Part shown: positions 30,815-62,550 of the stretch, one piece after another
Numbering within the stretch: position 1 is the first letter of the stretch
Layout: every line of letters starts with the position of its first letter
Position numbers and translations under genes: made by a program
Notes under the pieces: generated by a model
The model's database searches: none
What the model saw: only the letters and a program-made list of their open reading frames with translations
Told to the model about the DNA's origin: nothing
Source: Saccharomonospora piscinae
GTDB taxonomy: Bacteria; Actinomycetota; Actinomycetes; Mycobacteriales; Pseudonocardiaceae
Assembly (NCBI RefSeq): GCF_005862235.1
Contig: NZ_VCEK01000003.1
Coordinates: 511,641 to 575,640, forward strand
DNA: 64,000 nt
Direction: 5' to 3'

Positions 30815-32482
30815 TTGTTTCAGCTGAGTGCGACGACGACCGTTCTCTTGCTGGTCGGATTTTATGGGTTGACGTATCTCTTGACTCGGACGATCCGAAA
30901 AAAGAAAGAGAACGTCGACGGGTTCATGGTCTCGAACAACGCGGTGGGGTTCGGGATCTCGGCTGCGAGCATGACCGCCACCTGGGTCTGGGCCGCGTCC
31001 TTCTACGCGAGTGCCAGCTCCGGCTACACCTACGGACTGTCCGGCCCCATTCATTATGGGCTCTGGGGCGCACTGATGATTCTGTGTATCTACCCTTTCG
31101 GGAGACGGTTTCGTGAGGTGGCCCCGAAGGCGCATACGCTCGCCGAGGTGATGCACGCTCGGCACGGCAGGTCGAGCCAGTTGATTCTCGCCTTCTCCAA
31201 CATCGTCGGCAGCGTGATCAGCCTGACCGCCAATTTCACCGCAGCCGGTGCGCTCGTGGCCGTGCTGACGCCGTTCGACTTTCTGCATGGGGTGCTGGCC
31301 GTCGCCGTCGGCGTGCTCACCTACACGCTGTGGTCCGGTTTCCGTGCCTCGGTGCTGACCGACTTTGCGCAGCTGGTGGCGCTGATGCTCGCCGCGGCGC
31401 TCATCATTCCGATGATCTTCTTCGCCGCCGGTGGTCCGAGCATGCTGGGTGACGGACTTCGCTCGCTGACGTCGGAGCAGGCGGACTTCTTCTCCCTGAC
31501 CGCGTTCCTGGAGCAGGGCGGCCCGTACCTCGCGGCCGTGCTCGCCTACGCCATCGGTAACCAGACCATCGCGCAGCGTCTCTTCGCCGTGCGGCAGGAC
31601 AAGATCAAGGCGACGTTCGTGACCGCGACCCTCGGCTACGGCGGCACCGTGATCGGCCTCGGCATGCTGGGGTTGCTCGCGGTCATGGTCGGCATCCGCC
31701 CGCTGGACGGCGACATGAACAACATCATCCCGCAGATGGCGTCCGAGTACCTTCCCGCCGTAATGATCGGTCTGCTGTTCATCATGGTGATCGGCTCGTT
31801 GTCGTCCACAGCGGACTCCGATCTCGCGGCACTGTCGTCGCTGGTGATGACCGACATCTACGGTCGCAACGTCGCGGGTCGCAACGTCAACCCCGCCACG
31901 ATGCTCCTCTGGGGACGGGTGACGATGGTGGGCGCCACGGCCCTCGGAGTCATGTTCGCCGTCTCGAACTTCGACATCCTGGATCTGCTCGTGTTCGTGG
32001 GAGGACTGTGGGGCGCACTGGTGTTCCCGGTCATCGTCAGCATGTACTGGAACCGGATCACCAACGTCGCGTTCACCGTCGCAGCGCTGGTCGGGACCGG
32101 CTTCTTCCTGGTGGCGCGCTTCGAATTGCTGGCGCTCACCGGCGTGGTCGCCGTGGTGCTGGAACTCGCCGCGGCGGCGGGGATCGCGGTGGTCTTCGGC
32201 CTGATGACGTTCGGCTTCCTCGGCAGGAATGCCGGCCTGGGGGTGGCGGTGGCGAGCGGACTCGGGTTCGCGCCGCTGGTACTCGGCTTCCTCCGCGACT
32301 ACCCCACGTTGCTCGGGTCGCTGGTCGCCTATGGCGCCAGCGCGGTGACCTGTGTGCTGATCAGCCTGCGGAGCACCGAGCGGTTCGACTTCGCGTTGCT
32401 GGGCCAGCGCGTGACCGCGTTCCAGCACGCGGGTGGCCGGGACACGGAGCAGGGCGACGACCCGGTCACGGCGCGCCAATGA
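30815..32482 (+). CDS. Sodium:solute symporter (SSS family)
   Basis: The 555-residue protein has about 13 membrane segments and the SSS pattern: GFMVSNNAVGFGISAASMTATW near the N-terminus (TM1-2), GSVISLTANFTAAGALVAVL, and IGSLSSTADSDLAALSSLV in TM8, whose serines bind sodium in this family. The substrate cannot be fixed; solutes such as urea, organic acids or amino acids are all possible. TTG at 30815 is used because ACGGAG precedes it and the first helix starts directly. A 43-residue partner gene follows. Confidence 0.88.
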   Translation: MFQLSATTTVLLLVGFYGLTYLLTRTIRKKKENVDGFMVSNNAVGFGISAASMTATWVWAASFYASASSGYTYGLSGPIHYGLWGALMILCIYPFGRRFREVAPKAHTLAEVMHARHGRSSQLILAFSNIVGSVISLTANFTAAGALVAVLTPFDFLHGVLAVAVGVLTYTLWSGFRASVLTDFAQLVALMLAAALIIPMIFFAAGGPSMLGDGLRSLTSEQADFFSLTAFLEQGGPYLAAVLAYAIGNQTIAQRLFAVRQDKIKATFVTATLGYGGTVIGLGMLGLLAVMVGIRPLDGDMNNIIPQMASEYLPAVMIGLLFIMVIGSLSSTADSDLAALSSLVMTDIYGRNVAGRNVNPATMLLWGRVTMVGATALGVMFAVSNFDILDLLVFVGGLWGALVFPVIVSMYWNRITNVAFTVAALVGTGFFLVARFELLALTGVVAVVLELAAAAGIAVVFGLMTFGFLGRNAGLGVAVASGLGFAPLVLGFLRDYPTLLGSLVAYGASAVTCVLISLRSTERFDFALLGQRVTAFQHAGGRDTEQGDDPVTARQ

Positions 32483-32665: not shown

Positions 32666-34090
32666 TCAGCGGGCGAGGCCGGTGTCGAAGGCGGTGAGCA
32701 GTGGTCCCGCCAGCGGGCCGATCGCGAGCGACACCGCCGCGGCGAGGTAGGCGATGCCGAGCGGCCACCGGCTGGGCCGATCGTTGCTCGCCGGTTCGGC
32801 CCGCACCGCGGGTGTGATCCAGCGCAGGTAGTAGAACAGGCTGGCGACCGTGTTGACGACGGCCACGACGACTAGCCAGGCGAGGCCCGCGTCGAGGGCG
32901 GCGGTGAAGACGGTGAGCTTGCCCGCGAACACACCGGTGGGCGGTGTGCCGACCAGGCCGAGCAGGCAGACGACGAGGGCCAGGGCGAGCCACCGGTTCG
33001 CCCGCAGGAGCCCCCGGTAGTCGGCGAGCGTCGTGGCGCGGGGGAGCGCGGCGACCACGGCGAACGCACCGAGGTTGGTGACGGCGTAGGCGGCGAGGTA
33101 GAGCAGCAGGCCGGTGAGGGCGAGCGTGGTACGGCCCGCGGCGGCGACAGCCATCAGCAGGTAGCCGACCTGGCTGATCGTGGAGTAGGCCAGCAGCCGC
33201 CGGACGTTGTCCTGGAAGAAGGCGGCCAGGTTGCCCAGTGTCATCGTGAGCGCGGCGAGCACCGCGATGAGCAGCCGCCAGTCCACCGTCGTCGGCGCGA
33301 GGGCGGTGTCGGCGAACCGGAAGACGGCCACGACGGCGCCGATCTTGGGGATGGTGGTTAGGAGGGCGGCCACCGGGGCGCGGGCGCCTTCGGCCGCGTC
33401 GGGGATCCAGAAGTGCGTGGGGACGGCGCCCGCCTTGAACAGCGGGCCCGCCAGGAACAGGACGGCGCCGATCGCGACAGCGGCACCCGGTGCCGAGGGC
33501 AGGGTGTCGGCCAGCCCGGCGTAGGCGGTCGCGCGGCCGGTGCCGAACAGGGTCAGCAGGCCGAACAGCATCGTCACGCCGAGCAGCGCGCCCATGAGGT
33601 AGTACTTCATCGCGGCTTCGGTGCCGGGTGCGTCCTTGGCGAACGCGGTCAGCGCGTAGAGGGGAACACTGGCGAGCAGGTACGCGGCGGCGAGCAGCAG
33701 CAAATCCGCCGCTCCCGCGAGCAGGACGGCTCCGAGCGCGCCGAGCAGGAGCAACACGACGAACTCGGTTTCGCGTGGACTGCCGTCGATGTCCGCGGCG
33801 GCGAGGCCGAGCACCAGCAGTACCGAGACCAGCACGATGACCCTGGCGGCATCGGTGGCCACGTCGACGGCGTAGGCGCCCTCGAACACGGTCGTGCGCT
33901 CCTCCGGCCACCGGGCCACGGTGGCGGCGAGACCACCCGCGCACACCACGGCCGCCGCCAGGCGCACCAGCCACTGCCGGTGCCGGGGCAGGAAGGAGCC
34001 CAGCAGGAGGCCGAGCACGGCACCACCGGTGAGGAGCAGCTCGGGCAGCACCAGAGCCAGGTCCCGGGTCATCGACATCGCCGGGCTCAC
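32666..34090 (-). CDS. nuoN: NuoN-like subunit of a partial Complex I operon
   Basis: The 474-residue antiporter-like protein keeps the pump lysines, seen in GPLFKAGAVPTHFWIPDA, LLTTIPKIGAVV and GVFAGKLTVF. The helix-5 glutamate usual in ELLSLPLY is absent (YLLASVPLYAL). The gene is last in the minus-strand operon nuoA-fusion-HJKLMN. GTG at 34090 overlaps the nuoM stop by four bases; an ATG twelve bases later is an alternative. The protein sits in the membrane, and a role in proton or cation translocation is inferred. Confidence 0.88.
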   Translation of the reverse strand: MSPAMSMTRDLALVLPELLLTGGAVLGLLLGSFLPRHRQWLVRLAAAVVCAGGLAATVARWPEERTTVFEGAYAVDVATDAARVIVLVSVLLVLGLAAADIDGSPRETEFVVLLLLGALGAVLLAGAADLLLLAAAYLLASVPLYALTAFAKDAPGTEAAMKYYLMGALLGVTMLFGLLTLFGTGRATAYAGLADTLPSAPGAAVAIGAVLFLAGPLFKAGAVPTHFWIPDAAEGARAPVAALLTTIPKIGAVVAVFRFADTALAPTTVDWRLLIAVLAALTMTLGNLAAFFQDNVRRLLAYSTISQVGYLLMAVAAAGRTTLALTGLLLYLAAYAVTNLGAFAVVAALPRATTLADYRGLLRANRWLALALVVCLLGLVGTPPTGVFAGKLTVFTAALDAGLAWLVVVAVVNTVASLFYYLRWITPAVRAEPASNDRPSRWPLGIAYLAAAVSLAIGPLAGPLLTAFDTGLAR

Positions 34091-35586
34091 CGGTCCAGCA
34101 GAGTGCCGAGGGTGCGGGCGGCGGGTTCGACGAGGTCGAGCAGGAACCTCGGGAAAAGCCCGATCACCACGGCGAGCAGCAGCAGCGGCGCGATCGAGAC
34201 CGTTTCGGCGGTGGTGAGGTCGGCGACCGCGCCACGGCCCGCCGACCGCGGTGGGCCGAGAAAGATCCGCTGGTACGCGCGCAGGAACAGGGCGGCGGTG
34301 AGCAGGATCCCGAGGAAGGAAAGCGCGGTGGCGACGGGGGCGCCGGGCAGCGAGCCGGTGAAGATCTGGAACTCGGCGATGAACCCGGAGAAGCCGGGCA
34401 GCCCCAGCGAGGCGAACGCGGCGACGGCGGTGAGCCCGGCGAAGCGCGGCGTGCCCGCGGCGAGTCCACCGTAGGAGCGCATGTCGTAGGTGCGGCCCCG
34501 CTCGTACAGCACTCCGGTGAGCAGGAACAGCGCACCGGTGATCAGTCCGTGGCTGACCATCTGGGTCACCGCCCCGGCGACGGCGAGGTCCTGTGCCCGC
34601 GCGTCGGAGGTGGTGAGGAGCCCGGCCGCGCCGATCGCGAGGACGATGTAGCCCATGTGGTTGACGGAGGTGTAGGCGATCATCCGCTTGACGTCGCGTT
34701 GTGCCAGCGCGACCAGGGCACCGTAGAGCACGCTGAGCACCCCGACGACCACGATGACCACGGCGTAGTCCCGCCAGGTGCCGGGCAGGATCGGCATCGC
34801 GATCCGCACGAACCCGTAGGTGCCCAGTTTCAGCAGCACTCCGGCGAGGATCGCCGATCCGGCGGTGGGGGCCTCGGTGTGGGCGGGCGGCAGCCAGGTG
34901 TGAAACGGCACGGTGGGTGTCTTGATGGCCAGACCGACGACGATGGCCAGCAGGACGAGCACACCGAACGTCCCTCGGCCCGCGAGGGGGTTCTGCTCGG
35001 TGAGCCGCACGATGTCGAACGTGTTCGGCTCGGCGGCGACGAAGAGGCCGAGGAAACCGAGCAGCAGAGCCAACGAGCCGAGGAAGGTGTAGAGGAAGAA
35101 CCTCAGCGCCGCCCGTGCCGCGTCCCGGTGGCCCCAGCCTGCGATCACGAAGTACATGCCCACGATGGACAGGTCGAAGAAGACGAAGAAGAGGATGAGA
35201 TCCAGCGAGACGAACACGCCGAGGCACACCGTCTGCAGGAACAGGAACAGTGTCACGAACGCGCGCACCGAACGGGCCTGCCGCAGCGAGTAGATCGCAC
35301 AGGCGAGAAACAGCACGGCGGTCATCGCCACCAGCGGCAGGCTGAGCCCGTCGACCCCGAGGTGGTAGCGGGAGTCCACGATCGGGATCCAGCTCAGGTC
35401 GACCTCGTAGGCGAACCCGGACGCGCCGGGTGAGTAGGTCACCCACAGTGCGCCGACGAGTGCGAGGTCGGCGGCGGTGACCGCGACCCAGGTCCGGCGC
35501 ACGACCGTGTCGCTGACCCGGGGCACGGCGAGCAGGACCGCCGCGGCCACCAGCGGCAGGAACACCACGACGCTGAGCACGCTCAC
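34087..35586 (-). CDS. nuoM: NuoM-like subunit of a partial Complex I operon
   Basis: The 499-residue, roughly 14-helix protein has LAIKTPTVPFHTWLPPAHTE and GVLLKLGTYGFVRI, with the two conserved pump lysines, and SLGLPGFSGFIAEFQIF with the C-terminal glutamate. The glutamate normally in FWELMLVPMY is aspartate here (FFDLSIVGMY). AAGGAGG at 35591-35597 serves the GTG at 35586 or a second GTG six bases on. It is flanked by nuoL and nuoN and should form part of the proton-translocating arm. Confidence 0.9.
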   Translation of the reverse strand: MSVLSVVVFLPLVAAAVLLAVPRVSDTVVRRTWVAVTAADLALVGALWVTYSPGASGFAYEVDLSWIPIVDSRYHLGVDGLSLPLVAMTAVLFLACAIYSLRQARSVRAFVTLFLFLQTVCLGVFVSLDLILFFVFFDLSIVGMYFVIAGWGHRDAARAALRFFLYTFLGSLALLLGFLGLFVAAEPNTFDIVRLTEQNPLAGRGTFGVLVLLAIVVGLAIKTPTVPFHTWLPPAHTEAPTAGSAILAGVLLKLGTYGFVRIAMPILPGTWRDYAVVIVVVGVLSVLYGALVALAQRDVKRMIAYTSVNHMGYIVLAIGAAGLLTTSDARAQDLAVAGAVTQMVSHGLITGALFLLTGVLYERGRTYDMRSYGGLAAGTPRFAGLTAVAAFASLGLPGFSGFIAEFQIFTGSLPGAPVATALSFLGILLTAALFLRAYQRIFLGPPRSAGRGAVADLTTAETVSIAPLLLLAVVIGLFPRFLLDLVEPAARTLGTLLDR

Positions 35587-35608
35587 CTCACCTCCTTCTC
35601 GGCACGGG

Positions 35609-37453
35609 TCAGAGCACCACCAGCAGCAGTGCCAGCACCGCCAGTGCCACGACGGCCTGCGCGTAGTAGTGGTGGAGCAGGCCGGTCTGCGGGCGGAGGG
35701 CGAGCCGCCCGAGCCCGTGCGCACCGTCGGCGACGGCGCGCACGGCGGCCTCGATCGACCGTTCCCCGCGCGTGTCGGCCGTCCGGGCCAGTGACGTGCC
35801 GAGCCCTGCGGCGGCACGCACGCCACCGTCGAGAACACGGTCGTCGAAGCGCGCCAACCCCTCGGCGGCTCGCAGCGTCGGCACGGTGACGAACCTGCGC
35901 GCGACGCCTTCCAGGCCGAGCCAGTCGCCGAACAGTGGCCGCGCGGGCACGTCACCACGCAGCCGGACGATCCCGGCGGCCGCCGCCGCGGCGCCCAGCG
36001 CCAGCACCGTCGACAGCAGGTACTCCCACCACACCGGCGTCGGCTGCGGCCGGCTCGACACGATTCCCGCGAAGGCCGACCACACCCCGGGCAGGGCGAG
36101 CACGCTGAGCAGCGTGGTCCCGACCGCCAGCGGTGGCAGCGCGGCGCGTTGGCTCGGAAGCACCCGGCGAGCCCGCCGGGGTGCGGTGTGCCGGTCCGCG
36201 ACTGCCGGAGCCGACCAGACCAGCGCGACGGCCCGCGCCGAGTACCCGGCGGACAGCGCCGCGGCGGCCAACCCCACCACATACAGCGGTGGCGACTCGT
36301 GCAACGCGGTGGCGAGGATCTGGTCCTTGGTCGTCCAGAGCGCCAGCGGCGGGATACCGGCCAGCGTCACCGCGCCGACAGTGAAAGCGGTCCCGACCAG
36401 CGGATGGTCCCGGGCCACGCCCCGCAGGCCGGGCAGGCGCTGGGTGCCCGACGCGCTCAGCCACGCCCCGGCGGTTAAGAACAACAGACTCTTGGTGAGC
36501 GCGTGGGCGACGAGCTGCGCGGTCGCGGCGGCGACACCTCCGGCACCGGCACCCAGCACCATGAACCCGACCTGGGCGCAGGTCGACGCGGCCAGCAGCT
36601 GCTTGAGCTCGGACTGCGCCAGCGCGACCGCGCCGAGCACGAGCGCGGTGAACGCGCCCAGCCACGCGACCAGCACCGCCGCCCAGCCCGTAGCCGACAA
36701 CAGCGGTTGCAGGCGTAGGAGAAGGTAGGCCCCGGCCGCGACCATCGTGGCCGAGTGCAGCAGGGCCGACACCGAGCTGGGGCCGTCCATGGCCCGGGAG
36801 AGCCAGAAGCTGAACGGTAGCTGCGCCGACTTGCCGAGCGCGGCGAGAACCACCCCCGCGGCCACCACGTCGCGCCAGCCGCCCGGCAGCTCCGCGAGCC
36901 CGCCGAGGGTCAGCCCCGTGGCGCCGCCCGCCAGCGCGGCGCCCGCGGCGAGGTAGAGACCGAGATCCGCAGCCCTCGTGGTGAGAAACGCGATCGTGCC
37001 CGAACTCGCGCGGCGGGAGTCGTGCCACCAGTAGCCGATCAGCGCGTAGGACACGGCGCCCATGACTTCCCACGCCATCAGCAGTGACACCACGGTGGTC
37101 GCGGTGACGGTCACCAGCATCGCGCCCGCGAAGAGCAACACGAGGCCGAAGAATCGCGCGCGTGACTCGGTCGGGCCGATCTCGCCGACCGCGAACACCA
37201 GCACCACGAGCAGGATCGTCGCGACCGTGACGACCAGGATCGCCGAGAGCCCGTCCACGCGCAGGGCGAACGCGACACCCTCCACAAAGGGCATCGACAC
37301 GGCGGGACGGGTCACCGCCACGACGACCGACACGGCCAGTGTCAGCACGGTGGAGGCGATCGCGAGCGCCCCGGCGAGCGAGTCGGCGCGCCGGCCCGCC
37401 GCGAGCAGGACCGGGCCCACCAGCAGCGGGATCGCGACGAGCAACCAGAGCAT
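35609..37453 (-). CDS. nuoL: NuoL-like subunit of a partial Complex I operon
   Basis: The 614-residue protein retains the key residues of NuoL: Glu in LLMAWEVMGAVSYALIGYWW, Lys in ALGKSAQLPFSFWLSRAM, His in SALLHSATMVAAGAYLL, and the distal Lys in LALWTTKDQILATAL. The C-terminal third is long and amphipathic, compatible with the lateral helix that clamps the antiporter subunits. It starts ATG at 37453, four bases past the nuoK stop. It is a proton-pump subunit, but its electron donor is unclear. Confidence 0.92.
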   Translation of the reverse strand: MLWLLVAIPLLVGPVLLAAGRRADSLAGALAIASTVLTLAVSVVVAVTRPAVSMPFVEGVAFALRVDGLSAILVVTVATILLVVLVFAVGEIGPTESRARFFGLVLLFAGAMLVTVTATTVVSLLMAWEVMGAVSYALIGYWWHDSRRASSGTIAFLTTRAADLGLYLAAGAALAGGATGLTLGGLAELPGGWRDVVAAGVVLAALGKSAQLPFSFWLSRAMDGPSSVSALLHSATMVAAGAYLLLRLQPLLSATGWAAVLVAWLGAFTALVLGAVALAQSELKQLLAASTCAQVGFMVLGAGAGGVAAATAQLVAHALTKSLLFLTAGAWLSASGTQRLPGLRGVARDHPLVGTAFTVGAVTLAGIPPLALWTTKDQILATALHESPPLYVVGLAAAALSAGYSARAVALVWSAPAVADRHTAPRRARRVLPSQRAALPPLAVGTTLLSVLALPGVWSAFAGIVSSRPQPTPVWWEYLLSTVLALGAAAAAAGIVRLRGDVPARPLFGDWLGLEGVARRFVTVPTLRAAEGLARFDDRVLDGGVRAAAGLGTSLARTADTRGERSIEAAVRAVADGAHGLGRLALRPQTGLLHHYYAQAVVALAVLALLLVVL

Positions 37454-37456
37454 GGG

Positions 37457-37762
37457 CTAGCCCGACAGGTCCGCGGCCATGTCGGTCATGTCCACGTCCC
37501 TCGCACGGAACAGTGCCGTGGTGACGGCGAATCCGGCGGCCATCTCGATGGCCATCGCGGTCACCGCGAGCACCACGACCACCTGGCCGTCGGGACGGTC
37601 CGGGGAGGTGAAGTACCAGAACCCGGCAGCACCGACGATCACCGCGTTGACCATCAGCTCCAGGCCCATCATGATCATGACGATGGACTGCTGCGACAGC
37701 GCGCCGTAGAGCCCGACGCTGTACAGCGCCGCGGCCAGGAGCAGGTAGCCCTCCAGGCTCAC
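37457..37762 (-). CDS. nuoK: NuoK-like subunit of a partial Complex I operon
   Basis: The 101-residue, three-helix protein carries both intramembrane glutamates of NuoK: one in IMMGLELMVNAVIV and one in AVTAMAIEMAAGFAV. Its GTG start overlaps the nuoJ stop (GTGA). Conservation of these glutamates supports a working ion path through the membrane arm. Confidence 0.92.
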   Translation of the reverse strand: MSLEGYLLLAAALYSVGLYGALSQQSIVMIMMGLELMVNAVIVGAAGFWYFTSPDRPDGQVVVVLAVTAMAIEMAAGFAVTTALFRARDVDMTDMAADLSG

Positions 37763-38334
37763 CGACCGACACCGCCTCGCACCGGGTCGTCCGGCCGCGT
37801 GCGATCGAGCCGGTCGCCGAAGCGGTCGTAGCGCCCGCGATGGGTCGACAGCACGACGGTCGCCACGATCGTGGCGAACAGCGCCAGCCCGAGCACGATC
37901 ATCACGAGCATCTTCGGTCCCATGAGCGCCTCCGCGAGCGACCTCGTCGGGTCCGGGGGCGGCTGTTCGGTGGACGCGGGCCAGTCGATCAGAAAGATGC
38001 CGGTCGCGAGTACGGCGAAGGTTCCGGTCGCGATCGCCAGGGACGCCTTCCGGTTGTGCACCATGGTCATCGGCTGCAACCCGGCCGGGTTCATCATGTA
38101 CATGATCATGAAGACCACCATGATGAGCATCTCCATGGTCATCATGAGGATGACGAGCACACCCAGGTAGGCCAGCTCCACCAGCAACAGCGTCAGGCCG
38201 GCGAAGACGAACGACGCCAGCAGTGAGAACGTCGCTCTGGCCATGGAGTCCACCCGGAACACCAGCATCGCCGTCGCGACGGCACCCGTGGCGCACGCCC
38301 AGAACGCCACCTCGGCCTGCACGGGCGTCAGCAC
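37759..38334 (-). CDS. nuoJ: NuoJ-like subunit of a partial Complex I operon
   Basis: The 191-residue protein has five hydrophobic segments; the third is methionine-rich (VILMMTMEMLIMVVFMIMYM). Position and size identify it as NuoJ, though the usual VQVLVYVGAI stretch is replaced by VELAYLGVLVI. The GTG start is one base beyond the nuoH stop. NuoJ normally couples the quinone site to the antiporter subunits. Confidence 0.82.
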   Translation of the reverse strand: MLTPVQAEVAFWACATGAVATAMLVFRVDSMARATFSLLASFVFAGLTLLLVELAYLGVLVILMMTMEMLIMVVFMIMYMMNPAGLQPMTMVHNRKASLAIATGTFAVLATGIFLIDWPASTEQPPPDPTRSLAEALMGPKMLVMIVLGLALFATIVATVVLSTHRGRYDRFGDRLDRTRPDDPVRGGVGR

Positions 38335-38335
38335 C

Positions 38336-39259
38336 TCAGATCACCACGATCGCCACGACCAGCGCCTGCACCAGCGTCAGCGGGATGAGCAGAATCCAGG
38401 AGACCTCCGCGAACCGTTCCATGCGGATCGTCGGCACTCGCCGCCCGATGCCGACCAGCACCGCCAGCACCAGCACCGTCTTCACGACAGACCACAGCCA
38501 GGGCGGCAACAGCGGTCCGAGGCCACCGCCGAGGAACAGGGCCACCGACATCGCCGCCCCGGACACCAGCAGCAGCCAGCGGCCCGCGACGAAGATCAGC
38601 CGGTCCACACCCGACAGTTCCGCGAGCGCACCGCCCGCGATGTCGCGACCCACGGTCTGCGCGAACGGACCGAAGAACGCCATCGCCAGCACCGTGGCCA
38701 GGAACACGACGAACGCGACCGGCATCCAGACCACGAACCACAGGTCCCGCTGCGCGGCGACGATGTCGGCCACCCGCAGCGAGCCCGCCCCGATCGCCGC
38801 GGTGGTCAGGACGAACATGTGCGGGAGTTCGTAGGCGAGTCCCTGGGCGAGGAAGCGGTAGCCGCCCACCAGCCCGAACGCGGAGTCGGCTCCCCAGCCG
38901 GCCAGCCACACCGCCGCCCACGCCGCGATCTCCATAGCGTTGAACCACACGACGCCCACGGACAGATCGGCCACGGACCGATGGCCCAGCGGGGTGACCA
39001 GCGACGCCAGCACCGCGGTCACCAGCAGCACCAGGCCTCCGCCCCGCCAGAGCAGACTGTCGGCGGCGGGCGTGCGCCGCCGCTGCTGCACGAGCAGGCC
39101 CGCGACCGCGCGTGCCGGAGCGGTCGCCGCGCGGACGCCACCGGCCGCCCCCGCCGCCCGCGCCGCGAGGGCGGTGTCGAGCACGGCGGTGCCGAACGCG
39201 AACGCCGCCAGTACCAGCGGGAGCAGGAGCGCGCCCGGCCAGCCGACCGCCTCAACCAT
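38336..39259 (-). CDS. nuoH: NuoH-like subunit lacking the acidic quinone loop
   Basis: The 307-residue, about eight-helix protein is recognisable as NuoH from FLAQGLAYELPHMFVLTTAA, GSLRVADIVAAQRDLWFVVW and LPPWLWSVVKTVLVLAVLVG. The most conserved NuoH loop, normally AETNRAPFDLPEAESELVAG, is replaced by AFFGPFAQTVGRDIAGG, so almost all acidic residues at the quinone entrance and E-channel are gone. This argues against ordinary quinone chemistry. The ATG at 39259 overlaps the upstream gene by eight bases. Confidence 0.82.
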   Translation of the reverse strand: MVEAVGWPGALLLPLVLAAFAFGTAVLDTALAARAAGAAGGVRAATAPARAVAGLLVQQRRRTPAADSLLWRGGGLVLLVTAVLASLVTPLGHRSVADLSVGVVWFNAMEIAAWAAVWLAGWGADSAFGLVGGYRFLAQGLAYELPHMFVLTTAAIGAGSLRVADIVAAQRDLWFVVWMPVAFVVFLATVLAMAFFGPFAQTVGRDIAGGALAELSGVDRLIFVAGRWLLLVSGAAMSVALFLGGGLGPLLPPWLWSVVKTVLVLAVLVGIGRRVPTIRMERFAEVSWILLIPLTLVQALVVAIVVI

Positions 39260-40292
39260 GCGGCGCCTCGCGCCGCGCGAGCGTGTCCAGGTCGGGGTCG
39301 AGACTCGCCACGAGAATCCGTGCGCAGGCGAGTTCGTTGCCGTCGAGGAGCGTGGGCAGGGCCTCCAGCGCCCATCGCGTCTCCGGCGCTCTGTCCAGCC
39401 CGGCAGCGGAGCCGGGCCGATCGAACGTGCGCACGGCCGAGTCGAGCCACGAACCGAGGCGGTCCCATGCGTCTCCACCCAGCTCCGGAGGTGTGGACGG
39501 GACCGGCGGCGTGCGACCGACGCCCGCCAGCGACCAGCGAAGCGTGCGGGAGCGGCGCACCCGCCCGGCCCACCGGGCCAGGGCTGTCGCCGTGCGCGCC
39601 CGCCGGTCGCCGCGCAAAACGTCGCTGCGCAGGACGTCGTCGCGCAGGCGGCGAGCGGTGGCCGAGGCGTCGGGCCAGCCCACGACGGACAGCAGCCGGG
39701 CGCAGGAGTCGAGCCTGCGTGCGACGAATCCGGTGGGCGAATCCCAGGGCGATACCTGCCGGGCATGGCCCAAGCCGGTGGTCGTGACCGTGGCGTCCTG
39801 GATGACATCGCCCTGCAACGCCGTCCGGACGACCAGACCAGCGGGCCAGTCCGGCAGCACGGGGCCGAGCGGGACATGGAGCCGGTCGAGCATGAGGCCG
39901 TCGCGGTCCCGCGCGCGGTCGGCCATCGGCGGCTCCGCCCCGCGCCGGTCGTGGTGGGGGTGCGCTGCCCTCGGCCGACGCTGCCGGTCGGGATCCCCCA
40001 GCGCGTCCGCTGCCGCCGCAAGGCGAGCCGGTGCCGCCGACGCGGAGTCGATGTCGGCACGGGCGCACGGGCGTGGAAACAGGCTCCACACCTGCTCGAC
40101 GGCGGGCCGCAGGTCGTCACTCACCGGGCCCGCGACGACCAGGATGTTGCCCTCCGCCGGACTGGCCGCAGGCTGCCAGCCGCGCTCGCGGACGACGCGT
40201 TCGACGGCGACGCGCGCGCCGGTCCCACCCGGCGTGGCGACCACGAAGGGACGAGGCGGGGTGAGCCGCAGCAGCCAGGCGGTCAGGTCCAC
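39252..40292 (-). CDS. Degenerate NuoB/NuoD-like fusion protein
   Basis: This 346-residue protein occupies the place of nuoB-nuoC-nuoD. Residues about 45-80 (GNILVVAGPVSDDLRPAVEQ, then FPRPCA) resemble the NuoB segment that precedes an N2 cluster ligand. Residues about 140-175 (DRLHVPLGPVLPDWPAGLVV, then QGDVIQDA) resemble the NuoD start HxMGPQHPxxHG. Only three cysteines occur in the whole protein and the NuoB CC pair is missing, so no N2 iron-sulfur cluster is expected. It has no membrane helix. GTG at 40292 lies inside the end of nuoA. The homology is my reading of short motifs and is moderate. Confidence 0.6.
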   Translation of the reverse strand: MDLTAWLLRLTPPRPFVVATPGGTGARVAVERVVRERGWQPAASPAEGNILVVAGPVSDDLRPAVEQVWSLFPRPCARADIDSASAAPARLAAAADALGDPDRQRRPRAAHPHHDRRGAEPPMADRARDRDGLMLDRLHVPLGPVLPDWPAGLVVRTALQGDVIQDATVTTTGLGHARQVSPWDSPTGFVARRLDSCARLLSVVGWPDASATARRLRDDVLRSDVLRGDRRARTATALARWAGRVRRSRTLRWSLAGVGRTPPVPSTPPELGGDAWDRLGSWLDSAVRTFDRPGSAAGLDRAPETRWALEALPTLLDGNELACARILVASLDPDLDTLARREAPHG

Positions 40293-40642
40293 CGCAGCGC
40301 CCCCTCCCGCCAGGCGTAGACCACGCCCGCCACGAGGATCCCGAGGAAGACGAACATCTCGACGACGGCAGGCGTGCCCAGCTCGGCGACGACCAGTGTC
40401 CACGGGTACATGAACACCATTTCCATGTCGAACACCAGGAAGATCATCGCGATCGGGTACCAGCGGACGTGGTAACGCGAGACCGCGTGCTCTGCCGGTG
40501 CGTGGCCGGACAGGAACGGAGGTGTCCCGGTCGCGGTGTCGCCGAGGCGCACGGCGAAGGCCATGCCGTACAGCCCGGCAGCGACGAGCAGCATGAGGAC
40601 GAGCAGCACCAGCGCGCCACCGACGTTCACCGTGGACCACAC
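40283..40642 (-). CDS. nuoA: NuoA-like subunit, first gene of the partial Complex I operon
   Basis: The 119-residue, three-helix protein has the NuoA hallmark: PFLSGHAPAEHAVSRYHVRW followed by YPIAMIFLVFDMEMVFMYPW. The GTG at 40642 is preceded closely by GGCGGAGG. Ten bases of its end overlap the fusion gene. It is the 5' gene of an eight-gene unit read toward lower coordinates; its promoter should lie in the 400-base region upstream. Confidence 0.9.
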   Translation of the reverse strand: MWSTVNVGGALVLLVLMLLVAAGLYGMAFAVRLGDTATGTPPFLSGHAPAEHAVSRYHVRWYPIAMIFLVFDMEMVFMYPWTLVVAELGTPAVVEMFVFLGILVAGVVYAWREGALRWT

Positions 40643-58266: not shown

Positions 58267-61200
58267 ATGAGAGTGTTGGGCGTGCCCCTGCCAGGGCCGC
58301 TGTCCGTGGTGGGAGCGGCCCTGGGCACCGCACGCGGTGTGGTGTCGCTGGTCGGGGCACCCCGGCGGGCGACCCTGACCGGCCCCGGCCGCCTCTACAT
58401 CGATGTCCACGGCATCCACGGGGAGGGCGGCGCCGGTGTCGCGCGGCGGATCGAGCGCGCGCTGGAGTCACATCCGCACGTGGACTGGGCGCGGGTGAAC
58501 GGGCCGTCGTCGCGGGTGTGTGTCGCTGTGGCTCATCCGAGGCCGAGGACGGCCGAGATCGCGGCACTGGCGAGGCGGGCGGGCCGGGCCCCCGCCTCGC
58601 TCGACGACGAGGCCGTGGAGGACGAGGCCCAGCATCCCGCCGACGGTCTGCGCGGTACCCGGCTCGTCCCCACCCTGCTGGTGGACGCGGTGGGGCTCGG
58701 CATGTCGCTGCTGGCCCGGATCGCGCCGTGGACGCCGCTGCCCCCGGAGGTGGCCGCGCTGCTGGGCGTGCCCGGCCACCATCCCGAGCTCGCGGAGCGT
58801 CTGGCACACCGCGCGCACAGTCACACCCGCGCCGACTCGATGACGTCGATGGTGGGCGCGGTCGCTCAGGGGCTCGCGCAGGGCAACGAGGGGATCGTGC
58901 TCGACGTCGCCCAGCGCCTCGGTCAGTGGCGCGAGGCCAGGGCGCTGGAGCGCGCGTGGTGGGAGGTCGAGGGCCGGGTGGTCACCGGCCCCGACGCGGT
59001 GGCGGCGGCCGTGCCGCGTGGCGAACGACCCGCCGCGCTCGCGGACGGCGCCGTGGAGCGGTACCAGCGTGCGGCGCTGCGGGCCGGTGCCGTGGCGGCG
59101 TCGGCCGCGCTGCCGGTCGCCGGTCCGCGCAAGGCGCTGGCTCTGGGGCTGTCTGCCGTGCCGAAGGCGGCCGAAACGGCCCGCTCGGCGTTCGGTAGCG
59201 CTCTCGGGCGGGTGCTCGGCCTGCGGGGAGCGGTCGTGATGGACCGGGCCGCGCTGCGCCGCGTGGACCGCATCGACGCCGTGGTGCTCGACCGCGCGGC
59301 GCTGCGCACGGGCAGGCTCGCGCTGTCGGACCTGCTCGCGTTACCGGACGCGGACCCGCACGAGGTGGCGGAGCGGGCGTGGGGGTTGTTCGACCCGGCC
59401 ACCGGGGCGGCGGGGCCCCGCCCCGGCGAGGGCGACAGTGCGGGCTGGTGGCTGGCACCGCTGGAGGGCTCGCGCGGACAGGCCGAGCGCGACCGCCTGC
59501 TGCGGCGCGGGGCCACCAGCGTGCTCGGGCTGGGCCGCGACGACCGGTTGCACGCGGTCGTGGGGTTGCGGGAGGAAACACTGCCCGGCGCGCACCTGCT
59601 GACCGTCGCCGCCCAGCACAGCAGGCTGCCCGTACACGAGACCGACGACGCGGCGGGCACGGTGCGCGCGTTGCAGGCACGGGGCCACGGCGTGCTGCTG
59701 GTCTCCGGGGACAGCGCGGCGTGTGCCGCGGCCGACCTCGGTGCCGGGGTATATGCCGACGACCATCCACCGTGGGGCGCGCACGTGCTCGTGGGCACCG
59801 ACCTGCCGACGGCCGCGCTGCTCGTCGAGTCGGTCGGCGCGATGAAGGCACTGAACGCGCAGAGCATCCGCCTCAGCCAGACCGCGACCGGGGTCGGAGT
59901 GGTGGCGGCACTGCACGGCGGGCGCGGAAACCCCACCAGCCGCGTGATGCACGCCGTCAACGCGGGCTCCGCCGTCGCGCTCGTCGCCGCGCGTCGCCAC
60001 GCGGTCCGGTTGCGGGAACCCCGCGCCGTCGAGCTGGTGGACACCGTCCCGTGGCACGCGATGCCGCTGGCCGCCGTGCTGCGGCGACTGGACTGTGGTG
60101 CGGGTGGGCTGTCCGAGAGCGAGGCGGCACGCCGGAAGTCCGAACGCGGTGTGGCCGCCCTCGCCGGCACCAGCCTGGGCAGCGCGTTTCTCGCGGAGCT
60201 GGCCAACCCGCTCACCCCGGTCCTCGCGGGCGGAGCGGCGCTGTCGGCCGCGGTGGGCTCCCCTGTGGACGCCGCGCTGGTGGCGGCCGTGGTGGGGGTG
60301 TCGGCGTTGGTCGGCAGCGTGCAGCAGTTGCGGACGGAACGCAGGCTCGCCGACCTGCTGAGCCGCTCCGCCGTCAGCGCGACCGTGGTGCGCGACGGTG
60401 ATGCGCGGGTGGTGACCTCGGACGATCTGGTGCCGGGCGACGTCGTGGCGCTGACGGCGGGTGACGTGATCCCCGCCGACTGCCGCGTGGTGGACGCGGC
60501 TGGATGCGAGGTCGACGAGTCCTCCCTGACCGGCGAATCCCTGCCCGTGCCGAAATCGTCGGCCGCCGTCGTGGCCTCCGTGGTCGCGGAGCGCTCGTCG
60601 ATGGTCTACGAGGGCACGACGGTGGCGGCGGGCGAGGCCACCGCCGTGGTGGTGGCGGTCGGCGACGACACCGAGGCGGGCCGCAGCATGGCGACGGCGA
60701 GGGAGGCGGCCCCCACCACCGGGGTCGAGTCCCGCATCACCGAGCTGACGGAGAAGAGCCTGCCGCTCGCGGTCGGCTCGGCCGCGGCCGTGGCCGGCGC
60801 GGGGCTGCTGCACGGTGTCCCGCTGCGCGACAGCCTGTCCAGCGCGGTGAACCTGGCGGTGGGCTCCGTGCCGGAGGGGCTGCCGTTCCTGGTCAACGCG
60901 GCCCAGCTCGCGGCGGCACGGCGGCTGGCGGAACTGGGTGCGCTGGTCCGCAACCCGCGCAGCATCGAGGCGATGGGCCGGGTGGACGTGCTGTGTTTCG
61001 ACAAGACGGGCACGCTCACCGAGGGCAGGCTCAGCGTGAGCGAGGTCGACGACGGCCACGTTCGGTCGCGGGTCGACACCCTCTCCACGTCGTTGCGGCC
61101 GGTTCTCGCCGCGGCGTTGCGGGCGACGCCGCATTCCGACACGCCCCGGGATCTGCCACACGCCACCGACCGCGCCGTCGCCGAGGCGGGCCTGCGCCAC

Positions 61201-62550
61201 GCGCTCACCCCGGCGTCCGGCGCGGCGGGCTGGCACGAAGTGGCGGCGGTGCCGTTCGAGCCGTCCCGGGGTTTCCACGCCACGGTGGGACGCACCCGCA
61301 AGGGCCTCGTGCTCAGCGTCAAGGGCGCACCCGAGGAGGTGCTGCCCCGGTGCCGGCTCGACGCGCGTACCCGCAAGCGGCTCGGCGGCAGGCTCCGGGT
61401 GCTGGCGCAGGCCGGCCACCGGGTGCTCGCCGTGGCCGAACGGACGTTGGATGCCGGGGTCGAACCCGGAGCGTGGACCGAGCCGGACGCGGTCGACGGG
61501 CTGACCTTCCTCGGCTTTTTGGCCATCGCCGATCCGGTGCGCGGCAGCGCCGCCCCGGCGGCGGCGCGCCTGCGGGAGGCCGGTGTCCACATCGTCATGC
61601 TGACCGGCGACCACCCCGCCACGGGCGAGGCGATCGCGTCCGCGATCAACGGCGACGACGGCGGACTGCACGTGGTCACCGGCGCGGAGCTGGACGAGCT
61701 CGACGACGCGGGCCTACGCGAACTCCTGCCGGGGGTGGACGTGATCGCCAGGTGTACCCCGGCTCACAAGACCCGCATCGTGGAGACCTATCGCGCCCTC
61801 GGCAGGACGGTGGCGATGACCGGCGACGGCGCGAACGACGCTCCGGCGATCCGCCTGGCCGACGTCGGCATCGCGCTGGGCGGCCGGGGCACACCCGCGG
61901 CCCGCGCGGCGGCCGACGTGGTCGTGGCCGACGACACGCTCGAAACGATCATCGAGGCGCTGGTGGAGGGCCGCGCGATGTGGGCGTCGGTGCGCGCAGC
62001 GCTGGGCGTCCTGCTCGGCGGCAACCTCGGTGAGATCGCCTTCAACGTCCTCGGCGCGGCGGCCACGGGCCGCTCCCCGCTCGGCGCGCGGCAACTGCTG
62101 CTCGTCAACCTGCTCACCGACCTCGCGCCCGCGATGGCCATCGCCCTGCGCCGACCGGACGGCGCCACCGTCGAGGACCTGCTGCGGGAGGGGCCGGAGT
62201 CCTCCCTCGGCACCGCGCTGCACACCGAGATCGGGGTACGGGCCGCGACGACGGCGGGGGCGGCGACGGCGGCGTGGACGCTGGCCCGGCTCACCGGGCG
62301 GCGGCGCAGAGCGGGCACCATCGCCCTCGCGACACTGGTGGGCACTCAGCTCGGCCAGACTCTGCTGGCGGGAGGGCGCAGCCCGGCGGTGCTCGCGAGC
62401 GGACTCGGTTCCGCGGCCGTGCTGGCCTCGGTGGTGCAGGTGCCGGGGGTGAGCCACTTCTTCGGCTGCACCCCGCTCGGCCCGGTGGGGTGGGGCATCG
62501 CCCTCGGCAGCGCGACGACGGCCACGGCGCTGGGCGCGCTGGTGGGCTGA
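58267..62550 (+). CDS. Giant P-type cation ATPase, CtpH/CtpI-like, with dead N-terminal half
   Basis: The 1427-residue protein has a complete catalytic half from about residue 600: ESSLTGESLPVP (actuator), AVGSVPEGLPFLVNAAQ (TM4), VLCFDKTGTLTEGRL (phosphorylation site), HIVMLTGDHPATGEAIA and MTGDGANDAPAIRLADVGIA (hinge). The first 600 residues look like a worn copy of the same layout: VVLDRAALRTGRLALSDL aligns with the DKTGT region and VLLVSGDSAACAAADL with the TGDH region. The PEGLP motif suggests Ca/Mg/Na-type ions; the ion is unknown. The ATG at 58267 has no strong ribosome site. Confidence 0.85.
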   Translation: MRVLGVPLPGPLSVVGAALGTARGVVSLVGAPRRATLTGPGRLYIDVHGIHGEGGAGVARRIERALESHPHVDWARVNGPSSRVCVAVAHPRPRTAEIAALARRAGRAPASLDDEAVEDEAQHPADGLRGTRLVPTLLVDAVGLGMSLLARIAPWTPLPPEVAALLGVPGHHPELAERLAHRAHSHTRADSMTSMVGAVAQGLAQGNEGIVLDVAQRLGQWREARALERAWWEVEGRVVTGPDAVAAAVPRGERPAALADGAVERYQRAALRAGAVAASAALPVAGPRKALALGLSAVPKAAETARSAFGSALGRVLGLRGAVVMDRAALRRVDRIDAVVLDRAALRTGRLALSDLLALPDADPHEVAERAWGLFDPATGAAGPRPGEGDSAGWWLAPLEGSRGQAERDRLLRRGATSVLGLGRDDRLHAVVGLREETLPGAHLLTVAAQHSRLPVHETDDAAGTVRALQARGHGVLLVSGDSAACAAADLGAGVYADDHPPWGAHVLVGTDLPTAALLVESVGAMKALNAQSIRLSQTATGVGVVAALHGGRGNPTSRVMHAVNAGSAVALVAARRHAVRLREPRAVELVDTVPWHAMPLAAVLRRLDCGAGGLSESEAARRKSERGVAALAGTSLGSAFLAELANPLTPVLAGGAALSAAVGSPVDAALVAAVVGVSALVGSVQQLRTERRLADLLSRSAVSATVVRDGDARVVTSDDLVPGDVVALTAGDVIPADCRVVDAAGCEVDESSLTGESLPVPKSSAAVVASVVAERSSMVYEGTTVAAGEATAVVVAVGDDTEAGRSMATAREAAPTTGVESRITELTEKSLPLAVGSAAAVAGAGLLHGVPLRDSLSSAVNLAVGSVPEGLPFLVNAAQLAAARRLAELGALVRNPRSIEAMGRVDVLCFDKTGTLTEGRLSVSEVDDGHVRSRVDTLSTSLRPVLAAALRATPHSDTPRDLPHATDRAVAEAGLRHALTPASGAAGWHEVAAVPFEPSRGFHATVGRTRKGLVLSVKGAPEEVLPRCRLDARTRKRLGGRLRVLAQAGHRVLAVAERTLDAGVEPGAWTEPDAVDGLTFLGFLAIADPVRGSAAPAAARLREAGVHIVMLTGDHPATGEAIASAINGDDGGLHVVTGAELDELDDAGLRELLPGVDVIARCTPAHKTRIVETYRALGRTVAMTGDGANDAPAIRLADVGIALGGRGTPAARAAADVVVADDTLETIIEALVEGRAMWASVRAALGVLLGGNLGEIAFNVLGAAATGRSPLGARQLLLVNLLTDLAPAMAIALRRPDGATVEDLLREGPESSLGTALHTEIGVRAATTAGAATAAWTLARLTGRRRRAGTIALATLVGTQLGQTLLAGGRSPAVLASGLGSAAVLASVVQVPGVSHFFGCTPLGPVGWGIALGSATTATALGALVG

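Follow-up and report, generated by a model that had tools for sequence, protein, structure and literature searches.

A redox-free relative of the complex I membrane arm in Saccharomonospora piscinae, probably involved in copper(I) transport

Partial nuoAHJKLMN operons of Salinispora, Streptomyces and Kocuria are treated in the literature as a proton or sodium pump, and the operon has been described there as a partial NDH-1 belonging to a marine adaptation gene set (PMC3314556, PMC4018334, PMC6002675, PMC6676996). The gene order given in two of these papers, nuoA, a hypothetical gene, then nuoH to nuoN (PMC6676996, PMC3314556), is the same as that of eight genes found in S. piscinae on a stretch of 64,000 nucleotides (contig NZ_VCEK01000003.1, positions 511,641 to 575,640; hereafter the window). 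In PMC6676996 the second gene stays hypothetical and the operon, in a strain from copper-rich mine fluid, is explained by osmotic stress; the main text of PMC3314556 never uses the word copper. Our literature search, whose coverage left out most subscription papers, recognised no paper linking the operon or a methionine-rich complex I to copper. We consider it probable that the eight genes (the cassette) specify a complex I relative which has no redox chemistry and moves Cu(I), probably outward, driven by the re-entry of protons. Residue changes, metal-binding segments in the second protein and gene context are three lines of evidence that support an involvement of copper.

The eight genes occupy positions 32666-40642 of the minus strand, overlap or almost abut, and are all intact. 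Pfam placed A, H, J and K in their own families and L, M and N in PF00361, all over cut-off; NCBIfam told the latter three apart, with best scores as NuoL, NuoM and NuoN respectively, and only M exceeded the curated cut-off of the NCBIfam family bearing its name (TIGR01972). The initial annotation, made from the letters of the window alone, had read the genes as NuoA, a NuoB/D-like fusion (hereafter BD), NuoH, J, K, L, M and N, a reading confirmed by Pfam, NCBIfam, the BD profile and the fold search. The membrane-subunit set A, H, J, K, L, M and N of complex I is thus present in full. NuoC, NuoE, NuoF, NuoG and NuoI are missing from the window operon, as was stated there, and none of them is annotated in any relative operon inspected, the remaining loci not having been searched for them. 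All eight genes showed ratios of non-synonymous to synonymous substitution (dN/dS) of 0.15-0.29 against a congener, indicating purifying selection; together with the loss of the NuoB ligand cysteines in all 92 BDs (see below), this upholds the earlier idea of a cofactor-less membrane arm kept under selection. A single full-length NuoD is encoded elsewhere in the same genome, in an apparently normal nuo operon (contig C4, L028) whose nuoN is truncated where the inspected stretch ends. The initial annotation had missed this operon, the methionines and the copper association.

Residue columns were compared between 88-91 cassette proteins per membrane subunit and those of 21 canonical actinobacterial nuo operons, which, with one Escherichia coli check, served as the canonical reference. 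Proteins that contained X or did not reach 70% of the length of the window protein were left out, and a methionine was called gained when present in at least 94% of cassette proteins and at most 10% of canonical ones. By this definition J gained 14 methionines, K four, H two, A, L and M one each and N none; it is the connector subunits J and K, and not the pump subunits, that bear the striking change. J also gained E68 and H93, both missing from canonical NuoJ, and its median methionine content is 10.2% against 3.5% in canonical proteins. Most of the gained J residues are found in the third transmembrane helix (TM3, predicted at 55-80) and the loop that follows (81-94). In the window protein the helix carries M64, M65, E68, M69, M72, M76, M78 and M80, then comes M81, and the loop holds M89, M91 and H93; M78 is also a methionine in canonical NuoJ. 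Further methionines stand at the start of the second predicted helix (M31) and in the last helix (M138, M142 and M145). In the window copy 13 of the 14 gained in J are in place, consensus M87 being replaced by Gln, and all four of K are present. In comparison with E. coli NuoJ, M65 takes the place of Y59 and E68 that of Ala62; Tyr59 lies near a pi-bulge thought to switch during coupling. The charges of the J loops are compatible with a cytosolic TM3-TM4 loop, given the known NuoJ topology. The J model was of middling quality (predicted local distance difference test score, pLDDT, 77; predicted template-modelling score, pTM, 0.51) and matched NuoJ chains with TM-scores of about 0.2-0.4, one of them with E <0.001. 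A long His-rich tail extends the C-terminus of NuoJ in some Pseudomonadota members (L219, L220 and L225).

In K the glutamates E35 and E73 (E. coli E36 and E72) are retained, and the gained M29, M31, M70 and M74 are close to both. The initial annotation had held the pump residues to be largely kept, which was right for L and K and for the lysines of M and N. L has the complete set E129, K208, H233, K321 and K376 (E. coli E144/K229/H254/K342/K399), M retains K222, K253 and E405, and N retains K215, K245 and K387; the TM5 glutamate, however, has become Asp in M (D138; E. coli E144) and Leu in N (L134; E. coli E133). The TM5-6 loop of NuoH, on the quinone side, is stripped of most charged residues, and M148, M179 and R227 have been gained in this subunit. 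NuoA retains the canonical acidic pair D72 and E74, and compared by columns with 21 canonical NuoA proteins it has H52, H58 and M78 as family-conserved residues.

The second gene encodes a NuoB-NuoD fusion that has no NuoB-type cysteine ligands. Its profile matched NuoB chains of solved structures (best E 6.5e-6), and its predicted structure (pLDDT 88.5, pTM 0.87) brought chains of complex I, formate hydrogenlyase and MBH/MBS to the top of the fold search (best E 3.4e-4, probability 1.00), with query-normalised TM-scores mostly of 0.36-0.47 and four matches at E <=0.001. Judging from the chain names, we take the top chains to be NuoD-type and that at rank 37 of the best 50 to be NuoB-type. The window BD is below the cut-off of the Pfam NuoD family (PF00346), which was passed by four of six BDs of other classes (30 to 63 bits vs 24). 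Since the profile-profile match of the D-half to canonical NuoD is weak (probability 20%, E 0.0011), its homology to NuoD is argued from the fold search and from the Pfam matches in other classes. At about 224 amino acids the D-half has roughly half the length of canonical NuoD (457-461 amino acids in eight lengths). Over the full length of 92 Actinomycete BDs, none has cysteine at the four canonical NuoB ligand columns of cluster N2, nor does any have a CC motif in its first 130 residues. The linker between the halves is often rich in His or Met; among Actinomycete members it contains 13.1% His, compared with 2.3% in the remainder of BD, and 47/92 have a His-rich linker (at least five His), the window BD showing a short remnant, HPHHD. 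Outside the Actinomycetes, an HMBD domain (PF19335) occurs in three of the six BDs scanned, and CPMHP metal-binding units, one to five per BD, in 12 of 16 operons, as opposed to 0/92 Actinomycete BDs.

With five marker profiles, whose seeds were drawn from cassette loci, a copper marker was found near 38/92 cassette loci, against 2/40 arbitrary loci (Fisher p 1e-5) and 0/21 canonical nuo loci; excluding plasmid records leaves 34/86. The clustering of neighbour families at the 92 loci was carried out without preset markers, names being taken from annotated plasmids, and it placed HMA/CopA (27 loci), CsoR (18) and DUF305 (17) at the top. Same-strand copper genes stand directly upstream of the operon in several loci, for example L127 (CopA, 72 bp), L123 (multicopper oxidase, 51 bp) and L048 (CopA, 45 bp), and in some loci csoR is divergent from it. 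The palindrome TACCC-n3-9-GGGTA, which we presume to be CsoR-box-like, is found upstream of A in 17/90 loci compared with 3/602 control regions. Genes for a BlaI/CopY-type repressor and/or an M56 peptidase were seen near L055, L068, L074, L075, L078, L114 and L126, mostly without CsoR.

A plasmid search for NuoJ gave 31 records, 17 of them outside the Actinomycetes, and all 17 places were inspected; several are close relatives, and L219 and L226 come from one strain. Copper or heavy-metal genes are annotated in 14 of these (cueR, copper ATPase, HMA, multicopper oxidase, CopB, CopD, CusA/CzcA and others), although for two, L221 and L233, this is a general heavy-metal efflux gene only; L228 and L229 have no annotated copper or heavy-metal genes and L224 cannot be judged. 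In Roseivivax marinus (L219, L226), two plasmids of one strain each bear a similar operon and a cueR island, with several identical protein accessions shared between them. The operon is therefore linked to copper-resistance genes above background, the window locus itself being excepted. In the window, a 1425-amino-acid P-type ATPase-like protein is encoded at 58273-62550, 18 kb from the operon; its marker match (E 3.1e-45) is below the cut-off used.

The window cassette was compared with 61 genomes, its own included, by BD profile matching, and a genome collection was scanned with one short pattern, which confirmed 173 places, of which 80 genome loci were kept. Same or near-identical places (L030, L032, L034, L039, L040), a fragment (L041), an orphan pair (L027) and a spurious BD match (L037) were dropped before counting. 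The order A-BD-H-J-K-L-M-N, whose conservation had been proposed as a check, is complete in 72 of the 80; seven loci are interrupted by contig ends and one, in S. saliphila, has lost genes. There (L043 / L039) J, K, L and most of H are gone and M and N are intact, as if by a one-step deletion. As for the ninth partner or co-occurring full nuo operon also looked for, no gene is universal (the top family reaches 27/92 loci), but a separate canonical NuoD is present in 61/61 genomes. BD matches were obtained in 15 of these 61, one of them (G048) spurious on inspection. In an even class sample, 257/296 genomes matched the BD profile, mostly through canonical NuoB aligned to about positions 41-92 of the profile, and the match was strong (E <1e-30) in 19/296. 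Hosts of the cassette include many marine organisms, among them Salinispora, and also Streptomyces, soil isolates and clinical isolates.

The operon recurs on plasmids of Actinomycetota and Pseudomonadota. Sixteen of the 17 places outside the Actinomycetes, from Pseudomonadota and Rubrobacter, have the eight-gene order, with BD or H annotated as short or split in a few, and the seventeenth (L224) is annotated as hypothetical proteins. All 16 keep the J gains M31, M64, M65, M69, M72, M76, M80, M81, M89, M91, M142, E68 and H93, as well as M78, and the K residues M29, M70, M74 and E35, and all 16 have lost the TM5 glutamate of N. In a tree with six outside members and few outgroups, the cassette and outside sequences formed one clade beside actinobacterial and E. 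coli Nuo (support 0.97 for L, 0.85 for M and 1.00 for N), the Actinomycete M clade itself having a support of 0.34. In an earlier tree without outside members, cassette M grouped with actinobacterial NuoM with a support of 1.0, so that the placement of NuoM differs between the two trees.

Taken together, ion movement by the cassette is likely, and the ion is most probably Cu(I). That copper crosses the membrane, leaves the cell and is driven by protons is suggested by the setting among resistance genes and by the pump residues that have been kept. BD, through its His/Met linker or HMBD domain, and the putatively cytosolic MxMxH loop of J would collect cytosolic Cu(I), which could then move from methionine to methionine through J TM3 and K TM2/TM3, in place of the quinone-coupled E-channel, and exit on the far side of the membrane. 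The retained glutamates may couple this movement to the flow of protons through L, M and N, such that protons running inwards would drive Cu(I) out. Whether this amounts to a new class of machine, in which a Met-lined Cu(I) path replaces the quinone/Fe-S driver and a 'domino' couples proton flow to metal export, is in our estimate evenly poised. Among the functions that the initial annotation had considered, a machine driven in reverse, with protons entering, is compatible with this proposal, and a plain Na+/K+ antiporter is not favoured.

A number of observations weigh against copper export. Canonical actinobacterial NuoK is already rich in methionine (6.1%), and since N has no TM5 glutamate at least one of the pumps may be inactive. 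Fewer than five linker His are found in 45/92 Actinomycete BDs. The marker seeds came from cassette loci, which biases the test towards finding copper, and 54/92 loci have no copper marker in view. For seven of the 17 palindromes a divergent csoR shares the region and the site may be its own, the 602 control regions are upstream of any called gene and not of promoters alone, and a search with crude CueR/CsoR patterns found nothing upstream of 16 outside-class operons. Conservation outside the Actinomycetes is also incomplete: J M87 and M145 occur in 0/16 operons, M138 in 3/16 and K M31 in 6/16, H M179 in 0/6 of those examined, and the E144 of H that Actinomycetes retain is mostly replaced by Ala, Met or Ser. 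The membrane side, the direction, the transport and the metal are all inferred. At the window locus no copper marker exceeded the cut-off and no CsoR-like box was found upstream of the operon, and it is for this reason that we infer the role of the window copy from that of its family; it is an intact chromosomal member without copper neighbours and without most of the His linker.

One alternative is a proton or sodium pump or antiporter serving under salt or osmotic stress, the reading published for the partial nuo operons of Salinispora, Streptomyces and Kocuria. The pump lysines of L, M and N are retained, many hosts are marine, and next to the window operon a gene at 30848-32482, which we take to be sodium:solute symporter-like, converges on nuoN; Saccharomonospora is known from saline habitats. 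Such a pump would nonetheless leave the 14 J methionines, the gained Glu and His, the metal segments of BD and the copper islands unexplained, and the operon is present in soil and clinical isolates also; we regard this reading as unlikely. A little less likely again is a copper-gated proton conductor, in which Cu(I) bound at J/K would switch proton flow through L/M/N without crossing the membrane, for the control of pH or membrane potential under copper stress. It draws on the same residues and context as copper export, and bound Cu(I) could be signalled electrostatically by the glutamates that K, A and (in Actinomycetes) H retain, but the continuous ladder of methionines from TM3 to the loop seems to resemble a path rather than a single site.

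We find it improbable that redox activity has been retained, with Cu(I)/Cu(II) on BD replacing cluster N2, feeding quinone and allowing protons to be pumped outward. Multicopper oxidases lie near the operon in several loci and Met/His copper sites can be redox active; yet the charges of the NuoH TM5-6 loop are mostly lost or changed, the D-half has about half the length of canonical NuoD, many members have a short His linker or none, and copper potentials are unfavourable for the reduction of menaquinone. The least probable explanation is a decaying or selfish remnant of complex I carried in metal islands. The losses in S. saliphila (L043) would fit it, as would a Rhodococcus plasmid copy (L122) with no match to J, K or L and no such annotations, but the dN/dS values in all eight genes, the 72/80 complete genome loci and conservation across phyla argue otherwise. 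The initial annotation had named decay as one of the cases that would overturn its proposal; on the dN/dS values and the conservation it was rejected. Copper export powered by inward proton flow remains the reading that we favour.

Table 1. Genes of the cassette in the window, listed in the direction of transcription
Feature	Coordinates	Strand	Evidence
NuoA-like, 119 aa	40283..40642	-	PF00507 E 2.1e-26
BD, degenerate NuoB-NuoD fusion, 346 aa	39252..40292	-	profile and fold search; Pfam: none above cut-off
NuoH-like, 307 aa	38336..39259	-	PF00146 E 7.3e-39
NuoJ-like, 191 aa, Met-rich TM3	37759..38334	-	PF00499 E 7.9e-11
NuoK-like, 101 aa	37457..37762	-	PF00420 E 1.7e-13
NuoL-like antiporter subunit, 614 aa	35609..37453	-	PF00361 E 1e-50; TIGR01974 285 bits (cut-off 407.5, not reached)
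NuoM-like antiporter subunit, 499 aa	34087..35586	-	TIGR01972 E 7.1e-149, passes cut-off
NuoN-like antiporter subunit, 470 aa	32666..34078	-	TIGR01770 E 2.8e-92, 310 bits (cut-off 332.6, not reached)

Elsewhere in the same genome, contig C3 carries a lone BD and H pair (L027, 8184-10041), about 45% identical and without A or J-N, whose neighbours presumably include ACR3, ArsR, arsenate reductase and TerC. Some relatives (G012, G018, G027 and G033 among them) have extra NuoD-like genes in which PF00346 matches in two pieces (about 8-171 and 196-271), and these may belong to another complex-I-like or hydrogenase-like system.

If copper export is correct, the cassette would be, to our knowledge, the first member of the complex I superfamily to transport a metal, would give bacterial metal resistance a copper pump driven by protons, and would represent a machine spread by plasmids across Actinomycetota and Pseudomonadota. 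An operon so far classed with marine adaptation genes would also acquire a function, and the 'NADH-quinone oxidoreductase' genes misannotated on plasmids for metal resistance would be accounted for. How the quinone end of complex I is coupled to distant pumps is a long-standing question; here the driver has seemingly been exchanged and the pump mostly kept, which would make the cassette a case in which nature has freed the coupling mechanism from redox chemistry. The row of methionines would mark the coupling path, and each of its residues can be mutated separately.

In regards to known systems, the cassette shares with complex I the homologous subunits A, H, J, K, L, M and N in their usual order and the pump residues of L and K, and differs from it in having no NuoC/E/F/G/I and no NuoB cluster ligands, in its altered NuoH loop and in its Met-rich J and K. 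Mrp Na+/H+ antiporters, a relation reflected in the NCBIfam matches, likewise combine NuoL/M/N/K-like subunits without redox subunits. They lack counterparts of NuoH, NuoA and NuoB/D as well as a Met-rich NuoJ, and the cassette, with NuoH, NuoA and BD, does not have the MrpA-G subunit set. Ehr and group 4 hydrogenase-like complexes, as commonly defined, possess a NuoB-like small subunit with cluster ligands, which the cassette does not. P1B-type ATPases (CopA) and CusCBA share loci with many cassettes and probably the task of copper removal too, although they are unrelated proteins, powered by ATP or working as a resistance-nodulation-division (RND) pump. In the DAB system (DabA/DabB), too, an antiporter-like subunit of complex I has been reused together with a soluble partner and is driven by the proton motive force (PMC13144422); where DAB pairs one such subunit with a carbonic-anhydrase-like partner, the cassette has a whole membrane arm, a partner derived from NuoB/D, and copper genes.

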